NCBI RefSeq assembly: GCF_011043775.1
Contig: NZ_JAAKXY010000006.1
Coordinates: 62,001-126,000 of the forward strand
Direction of reading: 5' to 3'
DNA from: Natronolimnobius sp. AArcel1
GTDB taxonomy: Archaea > Halobacteriota > Halobacteria > Halobacteriales > Natrialbaceae
Length of the DNA stretch: 64,000 nt
The notes beneath the pieces were generated by a model. That model made no database searches. It saw only the letters and a list, made by a program, of their open reading frames with translations, and was not told the DNA's origin. Positions 1 to 51,233 of this stretch are shown here, in pieces. The stretch's first letter is position 1; the number at the start of each line of letters is the position of its first letter. The translations under genes and the position numbers were made by a program.

Positions 1-1
1 C

Positions 2-238
2 GTCTACCCGGACGAAAGCCACGGGTTTCCACTCCAGCGACGTTGGCTTGCCCATATGATGTCCGCAATATACACTTCCGCAGTACGCACCGCAGCCGTC
101 TTCATCCGCTCGAGAGCCACTACAGAGCCCGATCGTGAGGTAGTAGGCTGTGTGACCGGTTCGAGTGCTGTGGCATTTCCTGCGCTACTAAGTTGCTTAC
201 CGGGTGGGAATGAACCTCGAGCGAAAGCATCTCCGTGA
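2..238 (+). pseudogene. Possible C-terminal remnant of an S9-type alpha/beta hydrolase, cut by the window edge
   Basis: The frame is open from the left edge to a stop at 236-238. Its first residues read VYPDESHGF, which resembles the segment carrying the catalytic His near the C-terminus of prolyl-oligopeptidase (S9) family peptidases (usually YPDEGHGF). About ten residues later the likeness ends, and the tail does not look like the helix that normally closes this fold. It could be a decayed or truncated gene end, or chance. The identification rests on one short motif and is weak. Confidence 0.3.
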
Positions 239-1244
239 CTCAGTCTGGTCTGCTGTCTCTCTCGTCTATACGACTCAAGGCGGTATTTCAGCTACTAGAG
301 AGTGCTATCACCTATGTGGTTCACACACTGACTGCTGATCCTGCTCACGAGCGCGCTACGCCCGTTCGCTCTGGCGCAGCTCGGAATGAAGTGAGAGCCG
401 CGCATCCATCTGCTGATCTGGTGTGTTGGACTTTCAGTGAGTACTAGGATTCTCTCGAGATGGCCTCGATTTCCTGAACCGGGTGCTCTCTTGAATGGAT
501 ACCACCACGAGGACGATCATTGAAATTGACAGACCGACCTCCAATTACCCCCGATTTGTCTCTGGATTGTATTCTTTCAGGGGTGCACTCGAGTGTCCGC
601 AGAGATTGACTGGAAATATATTTCACACTAATATCTCGTTAATTCACCCGCTGATATTCCCTGTGGGTACTGCTATTGATTTTGTTTGATTTGGCCTCGA
701 TTTGTTGAAATGGTCTGGAACAGCACATGTGTGTTTGCTGTCTATTGGTGGGCTTTCTAACTGCGAATTTGGCTTGGGGATCACCCATTTACCTCATAGA
801 AATATAGCCGAAACTTATTATGGGTCCCAGTGGAATATACTAATCTGCAACCCTCTTCTGGAACTGCAACCCCTAGGGTCTAAGCCCCGAGAACCACCTT
901 CTAAAAACCATCATCTATCTACACTTTCTACACTACTACTGCGATTAATAGTGTAGTTTTGCGGAAGAAATGATTCCCAGATGTCTACTTTTCCCCTCGA
1001 GTCTTGATTCTCATGGTAGGTACTCGATGCTCCACTAGCATGGTGGTTCCCTAGTTTGCTGTTAGCATGCAACACATTACACTCTTTTAGATTCTATTGT
1101 AGTACTATAGTTGCTCGTTTTATAGGCCTACTTTGGAACCTAGCTCGTTATCTGCCCTGGTGTTGCATGCTCATACTCGCAAATAAGGGCATTTATTTCC
1201 GAGAATGGGCCAGATTGAAGTGGCTCCCCTGAGTGGTGCCGGCT
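239..1244. other. Gene-poor, AT-richer kilobase
   Basis: I see no convincing coding sequence on either strand. Short open frames here lack the acidic composition and GC-rich third positions of the neighbouring genes. The stretch contains a cluster of CTACACT repeats at 919-956 and a TATA-like TTTATT near 1192-1197, which probably drives the next gene. Lower GC and lack of genes beside a recombinase fit an island edge, but no attachment repeats or tRNA were seen. Confidence 0.5.
919..956. repeat. CTACACT direct repeats with an inverted copy
   Basis: CTACACT occurs at 919-925 and 928-934, nine bases apart. CTACACTA at 928-935 is matched by its exact reverse complement TAGTGTAG at 949-956, an 8-base stem around a 13-base loop. 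This could be a binding site for a DNA-binding protein or a small hairpin. It lies 290 bases before the DUF5805-like gene, too far for a core promoter. Confidence 0.5.
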
Positions 1245-1637
1245 ATGGCAGCCGACGACCGAGTCGCCGTGAAAACGTATGTGCCACGGTACCAAAAGGA
1301 GGTCTGGCAAGAGCACGCCGACGACCTCGAGATGAGTCAAAGCGAGTTCGTTCGGACAATGGTCCAGTCCGGTCGAAGTACGTTCGATGTGCCCTCGAGT
1401 GGGGGTAGCGAAACACCCCCCGATGAGGGTGGGGAAACCGACCACTCTGAGGGGTTCGGTGATCGCATTCTCGAGGTGCTTCAGCGCGAAGGTGTCAAGA
1501 ATTGGGACGAACTCGTTGACGCCCTGATTGACGATGTTGAGGACGATTTAGACGCAGCATTGCAGCGTCTGCAAGACGAAAATTTGGTTCGCTATAGCGG
1601 CCGCGATGGCGGCTACGTGGTGACAGAAAATGAGTGA
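1245..1637 (+). CDS. DUF5805-like protein: N-terminal ribbon-helix-helix-like part, C-terminal winged-helix-like part
   Basis: A 130-residue protein. The N-terminal part (VAVKTYVPRYQKE followed by MSQSEFVRTMV) resembles a ribbon-helix-helix DNA-binding segment. A Gly/Ser/Pro-rich linker at about 48-72 leads to a C-terminal winged-helix-like part ending RYSGRDGGYVV. I recognise the layout as the haloarchaeal DUF5805 family, typically found just before a Xer-type recombinase, as here: its stop overlaps the recombinase start by 8 bases, so the two are probably co-translated. The ATG at 1245 was preferred to a GTG at 1233 because the conserved part follows it directly. A role as an accessory DNA-binding factor for the recombinase is inference. 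Confidence 0.75.
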   Translation: MAADDRVAVKTYVPRYQKEVWQEHADDLEMSQSEFVRTMVQSGRSTFDVPSSGGSETPPDEGGETDHSEGFGDRILEVLQREGVKNWDELVDALIDDVEDDLDAALQRLQDENLVRYSGRDGGYVVTENE

Positions 1638-2661
1638 GAGCCAGCAGCTGAACACGGTCGAATATTTCCTGCAGGATATCGAACACCACGGGCGCAACGA
1701 CCGCACGGCAGCAGCCTATCGGCGAGTGTTGCGGGAGTACGAGACGTTCCTCCAGGAGCGATTCGATACAACGCCGCCAGCGGCCAGCTATCGTGATTGT
1801 ATGGCCTGGGTACATGAGATGCGTTCGACCCACTCAGAAAGCACTGTGGCGACGTATGCGTCGTATCTCAACCGTTTCTACAGCTACCTCGAGCGAGTGG
1901 GCCACGCCGAGGAAAATCCGATGACGGTCGTCTTAGAGGAGATGAACGAAACCATCGAGTCGAATCCAACGCGGCGAGATATTACGCTTGCAGAGATGCG
2001 TGCGTTCGTCGCTGATGTTCGCCATCCGCTTCATCGGGCGATCATCGTGCTGTTGTTGAAGACTGGACTCAGGGCGGGCGAACTCTGCAACCTGGATTTA
2101 GTTGACTGTCACCTCGAGCACGAGGCTCAGGACTGGCAGCCGCGGGCGCATATCGCCGGGCGACCGAATTCGCTCTTTATCTCGACAGAACACACCTACG
2201 GCGAGGAATCTGGCGGGGTGCAACGGAGTGCGTCAAACAAGCGCAAGCGTGAGACGGTGATTCCGATCGACGGGGAAGTAAAGCATGCGCTGATACAGTG
2301 GCTTGCGATCCGCCCTGATACGCCCTCGAACCCCGGGAGAACGACCGCCGAACCACTGTTCCTCAGCACGGCCGACAACTGGGGGGCGCGTCTCACACCG
2401 AAAATCGTCCATCACGTGGTTACCGACTATGCAGCAGACCGTGGCTGGCATCGAACCGGCGGCGGCGCGTCCGAGAACGTCACCCCGCATTACTTCCGTC
2501 ACTTCTTCACGACGCACCTGCGGGATCGAACCGGGGACCGAGGGATCGTCCAGTACCTCCGCGGTGATGTCGCCAGTGACGTGATCGATACCTACACTCA
2601 CAACTGGGGCGATCGGGTTCGGGATACCTATCTTGAGCACATCTATACGATCTCCGGCTGA
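1630..2661 (+). CDS. Tyrosine recombinase/integrase, Xer-like
   Basis: A 343-residue site-specific recombinase. Residues 1-100 form the SAM-like core-binding domain. The catalytic domain at about 115-335 shows the expected residues: R148 in TGLRAGEL, a Lys in the KRKRE stretch near 204-206, H287 and R290 in HYFR, and the probable nucleophile Y322 in DTYTH. It cuts and rejoins DNA through a 3'-phosphotyrosine. It is co-transcribed with the preceding DUF5805-like gene. That pairing suggests a resident chromosomal XerA-like enzyme rather than a phage integrase, although the low-GC surroundings leave a genomic-island role open. All catalytic positions are present, so it is probably active. Confidence 0.88.
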   Translation: MSESQQLNTVEYFLQDIEHHGRNDRTAAAYRRVLREYETFLQERFDTTPPAASYRDCMAWVHEMRSTHSESTVATYASYLNRFYSYLERVGHAEENPMTVVLEEMNETIESNPTRRDITLAEMRAFVADVRHPLHRAIIVLLLKTGLRAGELCNLDLVDCHLEHEAQDWQPRAHIAGRPNSLFISTEHTYGEESGGVQRSASNKRKRETVIPIDGEVKHALIQWLAIRPDTPSNPGRTTAEPLFLSTADNWGARLTPKIVHHVVTDYAADRGWHRTGGGASENVTPHYFRHFFTTHLRDRTGDRGIVQYLRGDVASDVIDTYTHNWGDRVRDTYLEHIYTISG

Positions 2662-2954
2662 CTAACCTCGTGTTGGACTGCATTCGAGTGGCGTTCGTGA
2701 CTCTCTGAGATGGCTCGTATCGCCAGTTTCCAAATTGTGTCTCCATTGGAAATTGGTGTTCTGGCCTCATATCTCGTTCGACATCAGGCAAATAAACCCT
2801 ATGTCGCTATACCGAAAACGTAGTTGTAGTTCAGAAGGCTTGGTACTCGCTGGACGAGATTCAGCCTTTGGCCAGATTGCCTGACGATCTCTGTACTACC
2901 CAAATTCACCGACGATTAGCGTGAAATCGCTGTACCCGTCTGTAGTCAAACAAG

Positions 2955-2962
2955 TATTAATA
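2955..2962 (+). promoter_or_regulatory. TATA box for the gene at 2987
   Basis: TATTAATA is centred about 28 bases before the ATG at 2987, the spacing expected for a leaderless haloarchaeal transcript. It supports the internal ATG rather than the upstream codon at 2921. Confidence 0.6.
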
Positions 2963-2986
2963 CCAATTCTACCTCTCTACTCTTGT

Positions 2987-3769
2987 ATGGATAGTCGGTT
3001 TCTCTTTGTTGGGGTAGTTATTTTGTTGGCCGTCTTGGGTTTAGTGGTGTTATTCTCGGTTCCATTGGGCATTGACCATAGTGAGGGACCTGTTGTGTTG
3101 GGCGATTCCGAAGAGTTCGTCTCTGCTGGACAGATCTCGAGCGAAGACCAACTACTAGTTCGGCACGACGCTACAGTAACAAACGACACCGCTCACACTG
3201 TACTCGAATACGAAAACGGAACCGTGGAATCCGTGTACCGTGACGGCGTCGTGTACACAAAGCATGTAACACACGTCGATAATGAGGACTGGTTTGAACG
3301 GAACGAACCAGCAACTGCCGAGATTATTCATTCCGGAGAATATCAAGATCGGTTCATTCGAATTTCTAAAGAGAATGGAACGTTCGATTCGTCTGAAATA
3401 GGTTCCGTACGCTCTATGACCTATTCGGGGTTGAGTTCAGCTGATTACGAGAAAACAGGTGAACAAAGCGACCCTGCACGGATAGTGTACTCACCAGAGT
3501 CTACATGGATGAAACTCGGTTCAGACACTCAACGAATCAGTTCTAAGTCGGGAGATCTCAAAACAGATCCTGAAACTGGCATCGTCCGAACGGCCTCGCT
3601 CCGTGTGACTGTGACAGAAGTGTCTTCGTACGGAGAGTTCTTGTTTTTCAGTGACGATGGTGATATCCTAGACGTACAGTATGAGTATGATCCTGAACCA
3701 GACATAGACCAGGTGGAGAAACCCTCATGGTTCAGACAGTGTGTCGAAAATGACCAATGCGAATTCTAA
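2987..3769 (+). CDS. Membrane-anchored extracytoplasmic protein of unknown function
   Basis: A 260-residue protein with one N-terminal hydrophobic segment (about residues 4-24), then an extracytoplasmic domain of mixed beta-type sequence containing several N-x-S/T sites, for example NDT and NGT. The segment has no lipobox, so it is a signal anchor or an uncleaved signal peptide. The C-terminal part (about 185-235) looks like a beta-rich lipoprotein-type domain. I do not recognise a family. The gene is less GC-rich than those downstream, as is the whole left 3.8 kb, and it is isolated with no operon partner. The start is supported by a TATA box 28 bases upstream. Confidence 0.7.
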   Translation: MDSRFLFVGVVILLAVLGLVVLFSVPLGIDHSEGPVVLGDSEEFVSAGQISSEDQLLVRHDATVTNDTAHTVLEYENGTVESVYRDGVVYTKHVTHVDNEDWFERNEPATAEIIHSGEYQDRFIRISKENGTFDSSEIGSVRSMTYSGLSSADYEKTGEQSDPARIVYSPESTWMKLGSDTQRISSKSGDLKTDPETGIVRTASLRVTVTEVSSYGEFLFFSDDGDILDVQYEYDPEPDIDQVEKPSWFRQCVENDQCEF

Positions 3770-3963
3770 TTGCAGATAGAAATCCCACTCAGCAATTTTG
3801 GCATCCGTGATTACTGCCCAAAAATCTGAATCGGAGTGTTTCACGTCGAATACAGTTATATTGGACTCCTCGAGTCCTGTCTCACCGATTCGTCGAGATG
3901 AAGCCACTTGAGCGAGACAAGGGGCGACACAGCAGCACAGAAAATCAGCAACGACTGTCGTCC

Positions 3964-4329
3964 TCAGACCGCTTCGGCACGAGCGCTCACCGTATCGAAA
4001 ATGTGTGGAACGAACCCTTCGGCGAGTGGCGAGAGTTCGTACACTCGCTGTCCACCCTCACGGAACTTGCCGACGAGTCCAGCGTCCTCGAGCGTGTTGA
4101 GGTGGTGATACAGGTCGTTTTGCCGTCGCTCGAGCAAGTCGGCGAGTTCACCGCTTCGGAGTTGCCCTTCCTCGGCGAGCAGATAGAGGATGGTAAATCG
4201 CGTGGGCTCACCCATCGCGCTGAGGCGATTTGCCTCGCGCTCGAGGTCGAGCGTCTCGTTCAGTAGCTGTGAGTCGAGCCGTTCTTGAGCCGTCGTTCGG
4301 TTGTTCGTCTGGACTTCGCGTTCACTCAT
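3964..4329 (-). CDS. ArsR-type winged-helix transcription regulator
   Basis: A 121-residue regulator. Residues about 35-105 form an ArsR-like winged helix: GEPTRFTILYLLAEEG gives helices 1-2, LRSGELADLLERRQNDLYHH the helix-turn-helix, and GKFREGGQRVYELS the wing. No metal-binding Cys or His cluster is visible, so its signal is unknown. It is transcribed away from the DUF7509-like gene at 4426. The 96-base gap between them holds an inverted repeat that may be its operator, so it probably regulates itself and that neighbour. A related regulator/DUF7509 pair occurs at 59664-60787. Confidence 0.8.
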   Translation of the reverse strand: MSEREVQTNNRTTAQERLDSQLLNETLDLEREANRLSAMGEPTRFTILYLLAEEGQLRSGELADLLERRQNDLYHHLNTLEDAGLVGKFREGGQRVYELSPLAEGFVPHIFDTVSARAEAV

Positions 4330-37336: not shown

Positions 37337-38192
37337 TCGGGTGCGAACGTTCACACTCGTGCTCGTGTGCGTTCTCGCGCTGTCACTGGCTGCGATGCCC
37401 GCAAGCGCCGGAGACGGAAGCGTGTCGGTCTACTTCCAGACAGAGGAGGAAAGTTCGACCACCCTTGAGATCGATGCCGACAGCGGCGACACCATCGAAC
37501 TCGAGATCGTGATGAGTGCTCACAGCGACCTCCGTGGGCAAGGAATCGACGAACTTGCTGCGACGGTCGAGTATAATACGTCCGTCTTCACCGTCACCGA
37601 AGCCGACCATGGTCCGATGCTGGCGAGCGGCGATTCCGACGCCGAGATTGACGGCTCGCTCGATGTCGACGACGATACAGGACAGCTACTGGTTGACCAG
37701 GAACGCACACCTTCGGGTGACGGTGCAACCGGAAACGACCCGTTCGCAACGCTGACGCTCGAGGTAGCGGAAGATGCTGAAGTGACGACGGAGACGCTCG
37801 AGGTCACCGATTCGTCGGCGAGTTCGGTCAGAGACTATCCGCGGTCCGTCTTCGACAACGATGCTATCATCCACGTCGAGGGCGGGGCGGACGAGTCGGA
37901 TGATGAGGGTGATGACGACGATGACGGTCCGGAGGGCGTTACACTGGGCGATGGAGTCGATGACGACACGAACGAGACAGACGACACAACTGAGACGGAC
38001 ACAACCGAGAGTGCGTCGAACGACGCTGATTCGGAGACGGACTCGAACGAAACGAGTGAGGAATCGAGCAATGGCACTTCGGACGCGGCAGACGACGCTA
38101 CAGCCGGTGACGATTCCGTCCCCGGATTCGCGATACCCGGTGCACTCATCGCGCTCGCGGTCTGGCTCGGCCTTCTCATCCGCGCCGACTAA
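37329..38192 (+). CDS. Cohesin-like surface protein with PGF-CTERM-type C-terminal anchor
   Basis: A 287-residue secreted protein. A Sec signal peptide (about 1-27, ending PASAGDGS) is followed by a cohesin-like domain of about 150 residues: VSVYFQTEEESS, DTIELEIVMSAHSDLRG, the hydrophobic core strand IDELAATVEYNTSVFTV and FATLTLEVAEDAE, matching the jelly-roll cohesin fold that in bacteria receives dockerins. A Ser/Thr/Asp-rich linker (about 190-262) and VPGFAIPGALIALAVWLG at the end match a PGF-CTERM type anchor. It overlaps the P19-like gene by 8 bases. Dockerin-bearing hydrolases are encoded 9-13 kb downstream, so partnership is plausible but unproved; the operon context points equally to metal handling. 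Confidence 0.72.
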   Translation: MTNRVRTFTLVLVCVLALSLAAMPASAGDGSVSVYFQTEEESSTTLEIDADSGDTIELEIVMSAHSDLRGQGIDELAATVEYNTSVFTVTEADHGPMLASGDSDAEIDGSLDVDDDTGQLLVDQERTPSGDGATGNDPFATLTLEVAEDAEVTTETLEVTDSSASSVRDYPRSVFDNDAIIHVEGGADESDDEGDDDDDGPEGVTLGDGVDDDTNETDDTTETDTTESASNDADSETDSNETSEESSNGTSDAADDATAGDDSVPGFAIPGALIALAVWLGLLIRAD

Positions 38193-45606: not shown

Positions 45607-46902
45607 ATGACACGTAAACCCACTGATTCCGACGGCGAACCGGCGGAGAACAACTGTACGGAGCGTTCGAGTCGAGAGTCCGCGAGCGGCCGTCTCGGAC
45701 TCGGATCGCGACGCAACTTTTTGAAGGCAAGCGCTGGCGCGGGTGCGCTCTTGCTCGCCGGCAGTTCGCTCGCGGCGGGACAAGAACTCGCTGAGGAGAC
45801 ATGCGAATCGTTTGGCGAAATCACCGTCGGCGACGGCAACTTCCTGCTGATCAACAACGACTGGGGAGCAACCGCTGACGATTTCGAGATGTGTAGCTGG
45901 CTCGCCGAGGACGGCAGCTACGGCTACCACTGGGAGACGCGGACGACAGGTGGCGGCGAGCCAAACTATCCGCAGGTGCTGCTTGGCACCAAACCGTGGG
46001 GCGACGACAGCGGTGCCGACTCGTTCCCGATTCAGCGCGGCGATGTCGACGAACTGATTCTCGAGATCGACATCGACCTCGATATTTCGGGCGGCGAGTG
46101 GAACCTCGCCGAGGAGTGGTGGCTGATGGAACAACCGCCGTTAGAGGAAGAAGAGACCCACACCCACGAGATCATGTTGGTACTCGACTGGAGCGACGAC
46201 CACGGTCACAACGGGACACTCGAAGACAGCGCCTGGACCGACCAGTTCGGCAACACGATTGACTACTGGGAGTTCTACGGGGACGGCGGTGGCACCGACG
46301 CAGACTTCCATATTTTCCGCGTGAGCGGCGGCCTGACGACGGGCCAGATCGATTTGACGGAGATCATGGACTATCTCACAGCAAACGTTGGTATCAGTGA
46401 GGATCTGTGGGTCAGCGGCATCGAAGTCGGCAGTGAGTACTGGGAGGGCACGCAGGGCGACGTCACCTACAATACCCTCGACGTAACGATCAACGGAACG
46501 ACCTACACCAGCGGGAGCGACGGAACTGGAACCCCGCCTGGCGACAGTGGTGATGACGACGATGACGATGGCGGCGATAATGGCGATGACGATACCGGTG
46601 ACGACGACGATACCGGTGACGACGACAGCCCGGGTGACGGTGATGACGACCTGAACGCCGTGATGAACACGAGCACGACGTCAGCGTCGGCTGGCGACCG
46701 ACTCACGTTCGACGCTGAGGATACCACGGGCAATGGAACCTGGATCGACTCCCTCGAGTGGGACTTTGACGACGGGACGACCGCCAGCGGCTGGTGGAAC
46801 GAGCACACGTACGAGTCCGCAGGGACGTACACGGTCGCGCTTGATGCGACCGACAACGAGGGAACGACGACCACTCACGAGGTGGAGATTACCGTTTCCT
46901 GA
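45607..46902 (+). CDS. Secreted GH12-family endoglucanase with Asp-rich linker and PKD domain
   Basis: A 431-residue exported enzyme. A twin-arginine motif (GSRRNFLKASAG) follows a 34-residue hydrophilic extension. The GH12-like catalytic domain (about 65-300) shows the family landmarks: NNDWG near 83, YPQVLLGTKPWG, the nucleophile E188 in HTHEIMLVLDW and the acid/base E277 in VGSEYWEG. An Asp/Gly linker (about 310-350) leads to a PKD domain (about 350-431; WDFDDGTTASG and HTYESAGTYTVAL). It should cut internal beta-1,4-glucan bonds. Unlike its two neighbours it has no dockerin. It is the first of three adjacent hydrolase genes with separate promoters. Confidence 0.83.
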   Translation: MTRKPTDSDGEPAENNCTERSSRESASGRLGLGSRRNFLKASAGAGALLLAGSSLAAGQELAEETCESFGEITVGDGNFLLINNDWGATADDFEMCSWLAEDGSYGYHWETRTTGGGEPNYPQVLLGTKPWGDDSGADSFPIQRGDVDELILEIDIDLDISGGEWNLAEEWWLMEQPPLEEEETHTHEIMLVLDWSDDHGHNGTLEDSAWTDQFGNTIDYWEFYGDGGGTDADFHIFRVSGGLTTGQIDLTEIMDYLTANVGISEDLWVSGIEVGSEYWEGTQGDVTYNTLDVTINGTTYTSGSDGTGTPPGDSGDDDDDDGGDNGDDDTGDDDDTGDDDSPGDGDDDLNAVMNTSTTSASAGDRLTFDAEDTTGNGTWIDSLEWDFDDGTTASGWWNEHTYESAGTYTVALDATDNEGTTTTHEVEITVS

Positions 46903-47090
46903 TCTCGGCTCACCGCCATCCGGATGGTAGCCCATCAGCCACCTGTGTGGGGTGTGGAACACGTTTTGGACGTGTCGGTCACACCACTGAAGCGTTGATT
47001 CCTTCGAATTGCTGTTCTCGAGGGCTCGTGTCAGAAATTCCATAGGCACTGATCGGCGTCACATCGATCCGCTCCACAGTAAATTACACT

Positions 47091-47112
47091 CAAAACACTA
47101 GTGATTTTAATA
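47091..47112 (+). promoter_or_regulatory. GH10 gene promoter with CACTAG element
   Basis: TTTTAATA at 47105-47112 lies about 31-38 bases before the ATG at 47143, so the leader is only a few nucleotides. CAAAACACTAG (47091-47101) sits directly upstream, overlapping the BRE region, and CACTAGTG at 47096-47103 is palindromic. A similar element precedes the GH9 and GH12 genes. Confidence 0.55.
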
Positions 47113-47142
47113 CGTGGGCAGTGACACCAGTGATGAGACCCA

Positions 47143-48867
47143 ATGACTGATCAGACACACTCTTCACCGACCGACGCCGCCTCCACGGACGGCCAGCGTT
47201 CGGACACCACGTCGAATCGCGATCACACTGAGACGGCCCTCGAGCGACGGTCGTACATGCAGCTACTCGCCACAGTCGGTGTGGCAACCCCGCTGCTTGG
47301 TGCGTCGAGCGGGGCGGCGACTGCGCAAGCGACGAGCGATGAGTGGGAATCGGCAGCGGACGAGCGCATCGAGACGCACCGAACGGGCGACCTCGAGGTC
47401 GTGGTTGAAGACGACTCCGGTGAGCCAGTTGCCGACGCCGACGTCGCCGTCGAGATGGATGAGCACGCGTTCAGATTTGGTGTCGCACTCGATGCCCCGA
47501 CGTTGCTCGAGGCGGACGAGACCGATCCCTATCGCGAGCACACACGAGAACTATTCAACACTGTCGTGTTCGGTGACCATCACAAGTGGCGGTTTTTTGA
47601 GGACAATCCCCAAACGGCCGACGACGCGACGGCGTGGGCGCTCGAGCACGACCTCGACGTCCGGGGCCATACCTGCCTCTGGGGAAACGTCAACGCGTGG
47701 TCGATCCCCCCTGATGTCGTCGAAGCCATGGGAATCGACTGGCCCGAGGGCGGCGCGGACGATCCTGACTACGACCCCGAGTACGTCCGCGAGCGCACAC
47801 TTGATCACATCGAGGATCTCATCGAGCACTACGGCGACGACATTATGGAGTGGGAAATCGTCAACGAGGTGCTCCATGAGACGGCGCTGATCGCAGCGGT
47901 TGAGGAGGGGCCAGACGAAGAACTCGACCCGACGGCGGCGGCCACCGCGCCGGTGCTCGCCGAGTGGTACGACCATGCACAAACCGTGGCCGACCGCGAG
48001 GGTGTCGGTATCGCTGTCAACGACTACAACACGCTCGAGGGCGACTACGCGGACACGCAGGAGGCCTATCACGAGCAAATTCAGTTCTTACTCGAGGAGG
48101 GAATCGACCTCGACGGCATCGGCTTTCAGTGTCACTTCGACGCGGCGGAGACGCTCGAGCCGGAGGCCGTGTATTCGATTCTCGACGAATTCGCGGAGTA
48201 CGATGTCGGCCTGCGGATCACTGAGTTCGACACGTTCCAAGAGTTACAGGACGAAGAGTGGGAGAGCGACGAGGCAAAAGGCGAGTTCCTCTCTCAATTT
48301 CTCAAGACGACCTACAGTCACCCGGCAGTCGAACAGTTCGTTCTCTGGGGGCTCTGGGATGGCGATCACTGGGGCGACAATTTCGACGGGCACGAGGCCG
48401 ACGCGCCCCTGTTCTACGAGGACTGGGAGCCGAAACCCGGCTACGACGCCTACACGGACCTCGTTTTCGATCAGTGGTGGACCGACGAATCAGGGACGAC
48501 GGACTCGAGCGGGCGCTACGAGACGCAGGCGTTCCTGGGAACACACGAGGTCTCGGTGACAGTGAACGAGACGACGGTAGAAGAGACGATTTCTGTGACA
48601 GAGTCCGACGGCACGACTGAAGTGGTTGTCACGGTCTCCGATGAGAGTGAGGATATTTCGGTTGGCGGCTACGAACCGCAGGATACGACGGGCGATGGGT
48701 TGGCCAACGATATCACCGGTGATGGGCAGACAACCCACGACGACGTTGCTGCCTTCTTCGAGCACATCGACGCCGATGCGATTCAGGAGAATCCGCAACT
48801 GTTCGACTTTGCTGAAACCGGTGACATTGGATTCAGTGACGCCCTTGCGCTGTTGCGATCAGTTTGA
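47143..48867 (+). CDS. Secreted GH10-family xylanase with C-terminal dockerin-like domain
   Basis: A 574-residue exported enzyme. LERRSYMQLLATVG (about 33-46) is the twin-arginine signal. A short beta-domain (about 83-105) precedes the GH10 TIM barrel (to about 440). Visible landmarks are RGHTCLWGN (174-182), the acid/base E242 in EIVNEVLHE and the nucleophile E361 in RITEFDTF, then LWGLWDGDHW. After a small beta-repeat (about 455-500), residues 506-574 form a dockerin-like module: DITGDGQTTHDDV and DFAETGDIGFSDA are two Ca2+-binding loops, the second imperfect. It is expected to hydrolyse xylan outside the cell and bind a cohesin. Confidence 0.9.
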   Translation: MTDQTHSSPTDAASTDGQRSDTTSNRDHTETALERRSYMQLLATVGVATPLLGASSGAATAQATSDEWESAADERIETHRTGDLEVVVEDDSGEPVADADVAVEMDEHAFRFGVALDAPTLLEADETDPYREHTRELFNTVVFGDHHKWRFFEDNPQTADDATAWALEHDLDVRGHTCLWGNVNAWSIPPDVVEAMGIDWPEGGADDPDYDPEYVRERTLDHIEDLIEHYGDDIMEWEIVNEVLHETALIAAVEEGPDEELDPTAAATAPVLAEWYDHAQTVADREGVGIAVNDYNTLEGDYADTQEAYHEQIQFLLEEGIDLDGIGFQCHFDAAETLEPEAVYSILDEFAEYDVGLRITEFDTFQELQDEEWESDEAKGEFLSQFLKTTYSHPAVEQFVLWGLWDGDHWGDNFDGHEADAPLFYEDWEPKPGYDAYTDLVFDQWWTDESGTTDSSGRYETQAFLGTHEVSVTVNETTVEETISVTESDGTTEVVVTVSDESEDISVGGYEPQDTTGDGLANDITGDGQTTHDDVAAFFEHIDADAIQENPQLFDFAETGDIGFSDALALLRSV

Positions 48868-48951
48868 TCCGACAGGTTGTCTCTCACTCGAGTACTGTTC
48901 TCTCGTAACCGCCCACCACAGACAAAATTACGACTAAGCAAATTAAAAATT

Positions 48952-48976
48952 AACTAACACTAGCAGGAACTTTTAT
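48952..48976 (+). promoter_or_regulatory. GH9 gene promoter with CACTAG element
   Basis: AACTAACACTAG at 48952-48963 matches the GH12 element AACTAGCACTGG in 10 of 12 positions and shares AACACTAG with GH10. TTTTAT at 48971-48976 is the probable TATA box, 29-34 bases before the ATG at 49005. That yields a near-leaderless transcript. Confidence 0.55.
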
Positions 48977-49004
48977 GAGAGTCTGTTGCGACATAATTTC
49001 ACGT

Positions 49005-51233
49005 ATGAGTCAGCAACAACATATGGCGATGGATCGACGGCGAATGCTACAAGCGATGGGCGGACTCGCATCCGCTGCGGTCCTTGGCGGGGCGATGACC
49101 GGAACTGGGATGGCGGCTCACGACGATGAGTATCGTGGCGTGCGCGTCAATCAAGTCGGCTATCCACTCGAGGGAGTCAAACGAGCGATTATCACGTCCC
49201 AGGCGATGAATGTCGACGGCGTCTCGACGTTTTCGCTTGTCGATGCCGACAGCGGCGAGACGGTCTACGAGGGGGACCTCATGGACGAAACCCTTGGTGA
49301 GGGTGAGAGTGCGGACAACCCCTGGGACGGGACCGATGCAGTGAGTGACGAGTTCGGAACTGACCACAGCATCAAATACGCAACCTTCACCGAGTTCGAC
49401 GAGCCCGGTGAGTACCAGGTCGTCGTCGGTGACGAGGAGTCCTATTCGTTCGAAATCGCCGACGCGAGCGATCTGTACGCGCCAGTGCTTCGGGACGTTG
49501 GCCGACTCTATACGCTCAAACGCTCGAGCACCCGTATCGAGGATCCCTACACCGGCCTCGAGATGGGGCCCGGCCACGAACAGGACGAAGAGGCTATCAT
49601 CGCCGAACCGATCGGCGACTGGCTCGAGGACTACGAGGCTGGCGACACGATCAGCATTACCAACGGCTGGTACGACGCAGGCGACTACGGCAAGTACGTC
49701 AACCCGACGGGAGTCACCGTTGCGCAACTCATGCTCGCCTACGAGCGCAACCCCGAGTCGTTCCACGCCGGCCAGTTCCATATCGACCACCTTGTGGACG
49801 ATCCAGAACTCGGCGAGATGCCGGACATTCTCGTTGAATGCAAGCAGGGACTGCACTTTTTGACGCAGATGCAGCGGCCAAACGGGTCGCTGTTCTACAA
49901 ACTCGCGGGCAACGAGAGCTTCCCGGACATGGACGTCGCACCTGAAGACGACGATATGGATCGGTACGTCTTCGGCACCTCTTCGGCCGGCACGGCCCAC
50001 GCCTGTGCGGTCTTTGCGATGGCCGCTCGCATCTACGAGGACCACGACCCTGACTTTGCCCAATCGATGCTCGAACACGCCGAGGACGCCTGGGCCTGGC
50101 TCGAGGCCAATCCAGATCTCGTCTGGGAGGAATCAGAGGACCAAGACGAGGGCTCGGGACCGTACGCTCGCGACGAGTATGACGAACCGGATCGCTTCTG
50201 GGCGGCCGCAGAACTGTTGCGGACGACTGGCGACGACAGCTACGATCAGTGGATTCAGGACACTGACCTCGGCTATGACGGCTTTGAGGGACCGGTCGAC
50301 GATCTGCCCTCGGACGTGGAAGCGCCGATCGACTGGAACAATCCGGTTGGACTCGGCCACTACGCGTACTTCTGGGCGGATGGCGACCTTGCCGGCACCA
50401 GCCACGAAGATACAGAGACAGCTGCAGCGGGACTCAACGGCGCGTACTGGGCGACACAGCGGTATCTTGATGACCCAGACGCCGATGAGTTCGATGCGTG
50501 GACAACCGGCGTCTACGACCTCTACTGGGGCTGGAGTAAATCCGGGCTCTCGAGGGCGCTTCAGGGCCTCTGGGCAGTCGAAATGCACGAAGAGATCGGC
50601 AACGAGTGGATCGGAGACGAGCCGGAAGCCGCCGTGATCACGGAGCCACTCCATCACGTCCTCGGGCGCAGTCCAACAGGCTATTCGTTCGTCACCGGCC
50701 ACGGCGAGCGCTCGACACAGAACCCACACGACCGCATCGTTCAGAGCCAGGAGATGGACGAGCCGATTCCGGGCATGCTCGTCGGCGGCCCACACCTCAG
50801 CGACGGCGTCGATGAAGACGGCACGTTCGAGCATCTCGGTGTGGACTCGACGGATGCGTTCGATCAGGGGCCGCTGCTGGCCTACGCCGACATTCACGAC
50901 TCTTACGCGACCAACGAGTGGGCAATCAACTACACGGCACCGCTGTTCATGCTGCTTGCGGAAGTCGTCGGCACCATTGACGAAACGCCCGAACCCGACC
51001 CAGTCGAATCAGGTGACAGCATTCAGGTTGGTGAGTACAGCACCGAAGACACCACGAGCGACGGTCTGCACAACGACTTCACTGGTGATGGTGAAACCAC
51101 CCACGACGACGTGACCGCCTTCTTCGAGAATCTCGAGGACGAAAACATCCAGAACAATCCAGAGGCGTTCGACTTCGCCGGGGACGGCGAGGTCGGGTTC
51201 GCGGATATCGTGGAGATGCTCAACCGAATCTAA
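49005..51233 (+). CDS. Secreted GH9-family endoglucanase with N-terminal Ig-like domain and C-terminal dockerin-like domain
   Basis: A 742-residue exported enzyme. DRRRMLQAMGGLAS is the twin-arginine signal. Residues about 44-152 form a CelD_N-type Ig-like domain (VRVNQVGYPLEGVKRAII). The GH9 barrel (about 155-655) has the catalytic pair D224/D227 in GWYDAGDYGKYV, H575 in STQNPHDR and the acid E638 in TNEWAINYTAPL, all at expected places. Residues 673-742 are dockerin-like: DFTGDGETTHDDV and DFAGDGEVGFADI are two clean Ca2+ loops. It should cleave cellulose and attach to a cohesin. The ATG at 49005 was preferred because MSQQQHMAMDRRR fits a Tat signal. Confidence 0.92.
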   Translation: MSQQQHMAMDRRRMLQAMGGLASAAVLGGAMTGTGMAAHDDEYRGVRVNQVGYPLEGVKRAIITSQAMNVDGVSTFSLVDADSGETVYEGDLMDETLGEGESADNPWDGTDAVSDEFGTDHSIKYATFTEFDEPGEYQVVVGDEESYSFEIADASDLYAPVLRDVGRLYTLKRSSTRIEDPYTGLEMGPGHEQDEEAIIAEPIGDWLEDYEAGDTISITNGWYDAGDYGKYVNPTGVTVAQLMLAYERNPESFHAGQFHIDHLVDDPELGEMPDILVECKQGLHFLTQMQRPNGSLFYKLAGNESFPDMDVAPEDDDMDRYVFGTSSAGTAHACAVFAMAARIYEDHDPDFAQSMLEHAEDAWAWLEANPDLVWEESEDQDEGSGPYARDEYDEPDRFWAAAELLRTTGDDSYDQWIQDTDLGYDGFEGPVDDLPSDVEAPIDWNNPVGLGHYAYFWADGDLAGTSHEDTETAAAGLNGAYWATQRYLDDPDADEFDAWTTGVYDLYWGWSKSGLSRALQGLWAVEMHEEIGNEWIGDEPEAAVITEPLHHVLGRSPTGYSFVTGHGERSTQNPHDRIVQSQEMDEPIPGMLVGGPHLSDGVDEDGTFEHLGVDSTDAFDQGPLLAYADIHDSYATNEWAINYTAPLFMLLAEVVGTIDETPEPDPVESGDSIQVGEYSTEDTTSDGLHNDFTGDGETTHDDVTAFFENLEDENIQNNPEAFDFAGDGEVGFADIVEMLNRI

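Follow-up and report, generated by a model that had tools for sequence, protein, structure and literature searches.

Do three adjacent glycan hydrolase genes of a halophilic archaeon encode enzymes that act singly, or components of a larger assembly? The genes lie side by side on the plus strand of the window, i.e. the whole analysed stretch of 64,000 nucleotides from Natronolimnobius sp. AArcel1 (contig NZ_JAAKXY010000006.1, positions 62,001 to 126,000), and a sequence-only reading had interpreted them as three secreted hydrolases of the glycoside hydrolase (GH) families 12, 10 and 9. Open reading frames (ORFs) of 431, 574 and 752 amino acids (aa) were found where it had placed them, and both the families and the secretion signals were borne out; overlooked was the architecture, as the GH10 and GH9 proteins carry C-terminal dockerin-like domains. 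In our view, dockerin-tagged components of a cellulosome-like system are probably encoded in the window, the host being an aerobic halophilic archaeon.

Dockerin-like domains on glycan hydrolases

The window GH10 and GH9 proteins each end in a dockerin-like domain of ∼70 residues with two calcium-loop/helix-like motifs (48649..48864 and 51015..51230, respectively, plus strand), identified by profile and alignment; that of GH9 was modelled with confidence by AlphaFold2 (AF2; pLDDT 92.8). Since the Pfam Dockerin and Cohesin models were too insensitive for these halophilic sequences, profiles of our own were built, and the dockerin profile detected 13 such domains in the genome, every one of them C-terminal. 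Loop 1 of the window dockerins was complete in the alignment (D21..D32), and one related enzyme of Natrinema ejinorense exceeded the Pfam Dockerin_1 cut-off (24.1 bits).

The 13 tags were 44–86% identical to each other (mean 64%), and the remaining parts of the tagged proteins had no detectable similarity in 71 of the 78 pairs. Such a strongly conserved C-terminal tag shared by unrelated enzymes indicates a common partner. At least 10 of the 13 tags sit on GH enzymes; besides the window pair, they were found on GH5 (five), GH10, GH12, GH43, lyase-like (assigned by reading the protein sequence), esterase-like and CBM-like proteins (CBM, carbohydrate-binding module). Five of the six genomic GH5 matches and the sole GH9 match, which is that of the window, were tagged; the one tagged GH12 is encoded at a second locus (L010), the window GH12 bearing a PKD domain instead. 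No upstream motif common to the tagged genes was found, only k-mers from the dockerin coding sequence itself. An ORF of 239 aa (L067:5580-6299) appears to combine a CBM-like β-sandwich with a dockerin, possibly a docked substrate-binding module without catalytic domain.

As to the catalytic parts, the first gene (45607..46902) encodes a GH12-type endo-β-1,4-glucanase of 431 aa with a C-terminal PKD domain (aa 353–430, 46663..46896; Pfam PKD_4, E = 7e-14), as had been claimed, and without dockerin. Although scoring below the Pfam PF01670 cut-off (19.7 versus 27 bits), it retrieved GH12 enzymes in a phmmer search of the PDB (best 3wx5, E = 1e-8; 1oa4, E = 5e-5), 11 of the 12 PDB chains among the matches listed being cellulases or endoglucanases, mostly named GH12 or Cel12, so the family assignment held. 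Its E188/E277 aligned with the conserved GH12 glutamate pair (EIM; GFEPWEG). The second gene (47143..48867, 574 aa) encodes a GH10 enzyme, likely an endo-xylanase, well above the Pfam cut-off (E = 1.3e-38, 133 bits) and with its catalytic pair E242 (EIVNE) and E361 (ITEFD) kept. The third (48975..51233, 752 aa) encodes a likely endoglucanase composed of a CelD_N Ig-like domain (49131..49442; Pfam, E = 1.6e-12), a GH9 catalytic domain (49476..50957; Pfam, E = 1.5e-67, 229 bits, over the cut-off) and the dockerin-like domain. The residues named by the sequence-only reading were intact in all three proteins and were correctly numbered in GH12 and GH10; those of GH9 are D234/D237 (DAGDYG), H585 (NPHDR) and E648 (TNEWAIN), the earlier numbers falling short by 10 in the ORF of 752 aa, an offset that a start at Met11 would fit. 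All three hydrolases have a predicted isoelectric point of 4.05 and the anticipated twin-arginine (Tat-type) N-termini. The order GH12–GH10–GH9 was kept in the one other congeneric genome sampled, with identities of 86, 91 and 92%, respectively.

A scaffoldin candidate with three cohesins

Six of the 13 tagged proteins are encoded around a single gene at the second locus (L010:15695-18148; G000:C2), where random placement would put 0.11 tagged genes within 20 kb. The product, a scaffoldin candidate of 817 aa, appears to be Tat-secreted and has no predicted transmembrane segment; it is composed of three putative cohesins, two FN3 domains, a CBM5/12-like segment (21.6 bits, below the cut-off of 26.2) and a C-terminal PKD domain similar to that of the window GH12. 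The latter enzyme also has a GH12-like paralogue with dockerin at this locus (L010:8434-9618), to which it is 67% identical.

Judged by profile matches and a structural model, the repeats of this scaffoldin family are cohesins. Pfam Cohesin was the top family and matched 11 of the 22 repeats (best E = 6.6e-6); the repeats of the Natronolimnobius candidate were not called by Pfam, and a PDB profile search from these three repeats only returned no cohesin match. An AF2 model of an N. ejinorense repeat, 53% identical to a repeat of the Natronolimnobius candidate, was predicted with nine strands (pLDDT 87); its best 50 PDB matches were all cohesins or cohesin–dockerin complexes (best E ∼1e-7), and by TM-score it came closest to the Archaeoglobus cohesin 2xdh (0.78).

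From these genes and homologies we infer cohesin–dockerin binding, complex formation, the substrate and synergy. The folded GH10 and GH9 enzymes would be exported via the Tat pathway and would dock by their C-terminal domains onto the secreted scaffoldin, which may gather GH5, GH9, GH10, GH12 and lyase-like enzymes on cellulose and xylan. The window GH12, having PKD in place of a dockerin, probably works as a free substrate-bound partner.

Recurrence, surface anchors and competing explanations

A survey of 391 haloarchaeal genomes, in which dockerin matches were taken from up to 15 candidates per genome, yielded at least three cohesin matches in 31 genomes, at least four dockerin matches in 27, and both in 17 (Fisher p = 7e-15 at species level, 5e-6 at genus level, related genomes not being independent). 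Besides Natrinema ejinorense (L073 = G202) and Halopiger goleimassiliensis (L074 = G077), about ten other haloarchaea had similar clusters of scaffoldin and dockerin-enzyme genes, with 2–8 cohesins in these further genomes. In three genomes (G208, G264 and G002), multi-cohesin proteins also bear a dockerin of their own and so look adaptor-like. G344 encodes GH5, eight cohesins and a CBM-like C-terminus on one protein, along with a 258-aa single-cohesin protein, while G002 has 15 cohesin matches and dockerin-tagged GH9-CBM3-FN3 and GH3. A 1665-aa protein of G002 (L085:6183-11180), in which a long linker of TDEPG repeats is combined with two cohesins and a PGF-CTERM-like tail, is a candidate anchoring scaffoldin.

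This recurrence bears on the published view of haloarchaeal ‘type I dockerin’ enzymes (PMC10963439, PMC13260240), namely that the C-terminal domains are substrate-binding modules; the hydrolases would then be free and secreted, and the multi-cohesin protein an unrelated adhesin. PKD and CBM-like modules are indeed common on the tagged proteins. However, the tag has a two-loop sequence and a fold model of dockerin type, is found on esterase-like and CBM-like proteins as well, and is accompanied by genuine cohesins within the same gene clusters and across genera, so that we regard this explanation as unlikely.

A second alternative arises from cohesins outside the scaffoldins. In several relatives, single-cohesin proteins with PGF-CTERM-like tails adjoin dockerin enzymes, and may hold them at the cell surface. 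The proposed surface docking would fit the report that cellulotrophic haloarchaeal strains hydrolyse insoluble cellulose by cell-associated activity only (PMC4569967). The window itself encodes a protein with a signal, a single cohesin-like domain, an acidic linker, a C-terminal hydrophobic segment and a PGF-CTERM-like tail (VPGFAIPGALIALAVWLGLLIRAD) (37341..38192, plus strand; Pfam Cohesin 24.2 bits versus a cut-off of 24.1), a possible cell-surface anchor with a putative link to dockerins. Its gene lies directly before that of a UbiA-family prenyltransferase and downstream of those of DUF7405 and DUF7350 proteins. Elsewhere in the window, positions 1–4000 have a G+C content of 0.52 versus ∼0.61 and contain, by reading of the sequence, a possible recombinase-like ORF (1630-2661), perhaps marking the edge of an integrated element. 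Furthermore, a widespread haloarchaeal gene pair (L068-L072, e.g. L069:4980-8363) encodes a secreted protein of ∼870–900 aa with one cohesin and one dockerin, together with a ∼250-aa single-cohesin protein with PGF-CTERM-like tail; the L069 copy of the larger protein, the one scanned, is a PhoX-type phosphatase. The gene pair suggests a general use of cohesins and dockerins in surface attachment.

Cohesin–dockerin pairs might do no more than fix individual enzymes to the cell surface, each through one cohesin, with no multi-enzyme assembly, as the single-cohesin neighbours of dockerin enzymes, the PhoX-type gene adjoining such an anchor and the cell-associated cellulase activity (PMC4569967) would lead one to expect. 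Yet the cellulase clusters include proteins with 2–8 cohesins, and the Natronolimnobius scaffoldin candidate itself has three and no predicted membrane segment, which makes mere tethering quite improbable here. That the locus is an ordinary cluster of free cellulases and xylanases, whose C-terminal domains have no binding role, would agree with the GH5/9/10/12 sets known from cellulotrophic haloarchaea (PMC10267330), but is highly implausible given a domain so strongly conserved across unrelated enzymes, a conservation difficult to account for unless they share a partner.

Several observations nevertheless weigh against dockerin-tagged parts of a cellulosome-like system, the reading that we prefer. 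The Natronolimnobius dockerins stayed below the Pfam Dockerin_1 cut-off (best 21.1 versus 22.9 bits); loop 2 of the window pair (D53..D64) is without the third-position calcium ligand; and in a Foldseek search with the GH9 dockerin model, known dockerins were top by TM-score (0.53/0.66 to 2vn5) but with E > 1, which is not significant. On the cohesin side, the third repeat alone of the scaffoldin candidate had no Pfam Cohesin match, and the repeat that was folded was that of N. ejinorense rather than of the candidate itself. Three genomes of one genus (G050, G079 and G089) have 4–7 dockerin-type C-termini each; no cohesin was detected in G079 and G089 by our profile or Pfam, and in G050 there was one weak match to our profile. 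As for anchors, no anchor specific to dockerin enzymes was identified in the Natronolimnobius genome, the 37341-38192 protein having been set aside as a dedicated one because its homologues occur also in genomes without dockerin matches; and a PhoX phosphatase with both cohesin and dockerin means that the link is not limited to cellulases.

Relation to known systems and significance

The cip-cel type clusters of mesophilic clostridia, e.g. that of Clostridium cellulolyticum with CipC, are simple bacterial cellulosomes. Like these, the haloarchaeal clusters have a scaffoldin gene among genes of dockerin-bearing GH5/GH9/GH10-type enzymes, a single secreted protein with several cohesins and a carbohydrate-binding module (here a putative one, the CBM5/12-like segment scoring below its cut-off), and a GH9 with a CelD_N-type Ig domain. 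Unlike these, the haloarchaeal proteins are Tat-exported, acidic for high salt and made by aerobic hosts, with binding that is inferred; the Natronolimnobius scaffoldin candidate has a CBM5/12-like segment and PKD, not CBM3; and no GH48 was present among the haloarchaeal proteins examined.

Haloarchaeal cellulases of the GH12, GH10 and GH9 families have already been published (PMC10267330), so the enzymes by themselves are ordinary; GH5/9/10/12 sets are a reported signature of cellulotrophic haloarchaea (PMC10267330, PMC4569967). The earlier remark that cellulolysis is uncommon in haloarchaea and mostly alkaliphilic was half right, as published cellulotrophs include the neutrophiles Halococcoides, Halosimplex and Halomicrobium (PMC10267330, PMC4569967). 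Two such studies deal with the same enzyme families in the same hosts and do not report cohesins or scaffoldins for haloarchaea (PMC10267330, PMC10963439). In the Natronoglomus cluster of the latter, whose dockerin is interpreted as substrate binding, a 1755-aa ‘GH5/CBM6’ protein and a 258-aa ‘S-layer glycoprotein’ stand with dockerin proteins, and the two lengths match the eight-cohesin GH5 and the single-cohesin protein of G344.

Among other archaea, Archaeoglobus fulgidus shares the cohesin fold, as the nearness to 2xdh indicates, and anaerobic methanotrophic (ANME) archaea have proteins with up to five cohesins (PMC9012536); these non-cellulosomal modules have ABC-transporter and similar proteins as dockerin partners rather than polysaccharide hydrolases. 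Earlier work cited in PMC9012536 describes archaea as being without scaffoldins. The cellulosomes described to date come from anaerobic bacteria and fungi (PMC12484212), bacteria were the scope of a recent genome survey of such complexes (PMC11557425), and no earlier proposal of a haloarchaeal cellulosome was found in the open-access literature, subscription journals lying outside this scope.

The wider proposal is that aerobic extreme halophilic archaea of at least about ten genera build true cellulosomes, with Tat-folded dockerin enzymes on multi-cohesin scaffoldins and, in some species, adaptor scaffoldins and archaeosortase-attached anchors, and that these underlie cell-bound cellulose degradation; for us it hangs evenly in the balance. 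If true, the cellulosome principle would hold in a further domain of life and under near-saturated salt, there would be a possible reason why only cell-bound haloarchaeal cellulases attack insoluble cellulose (PMC4569967), and the haloarchaea would be a source of salt-stable cohesin–dockerin parts.

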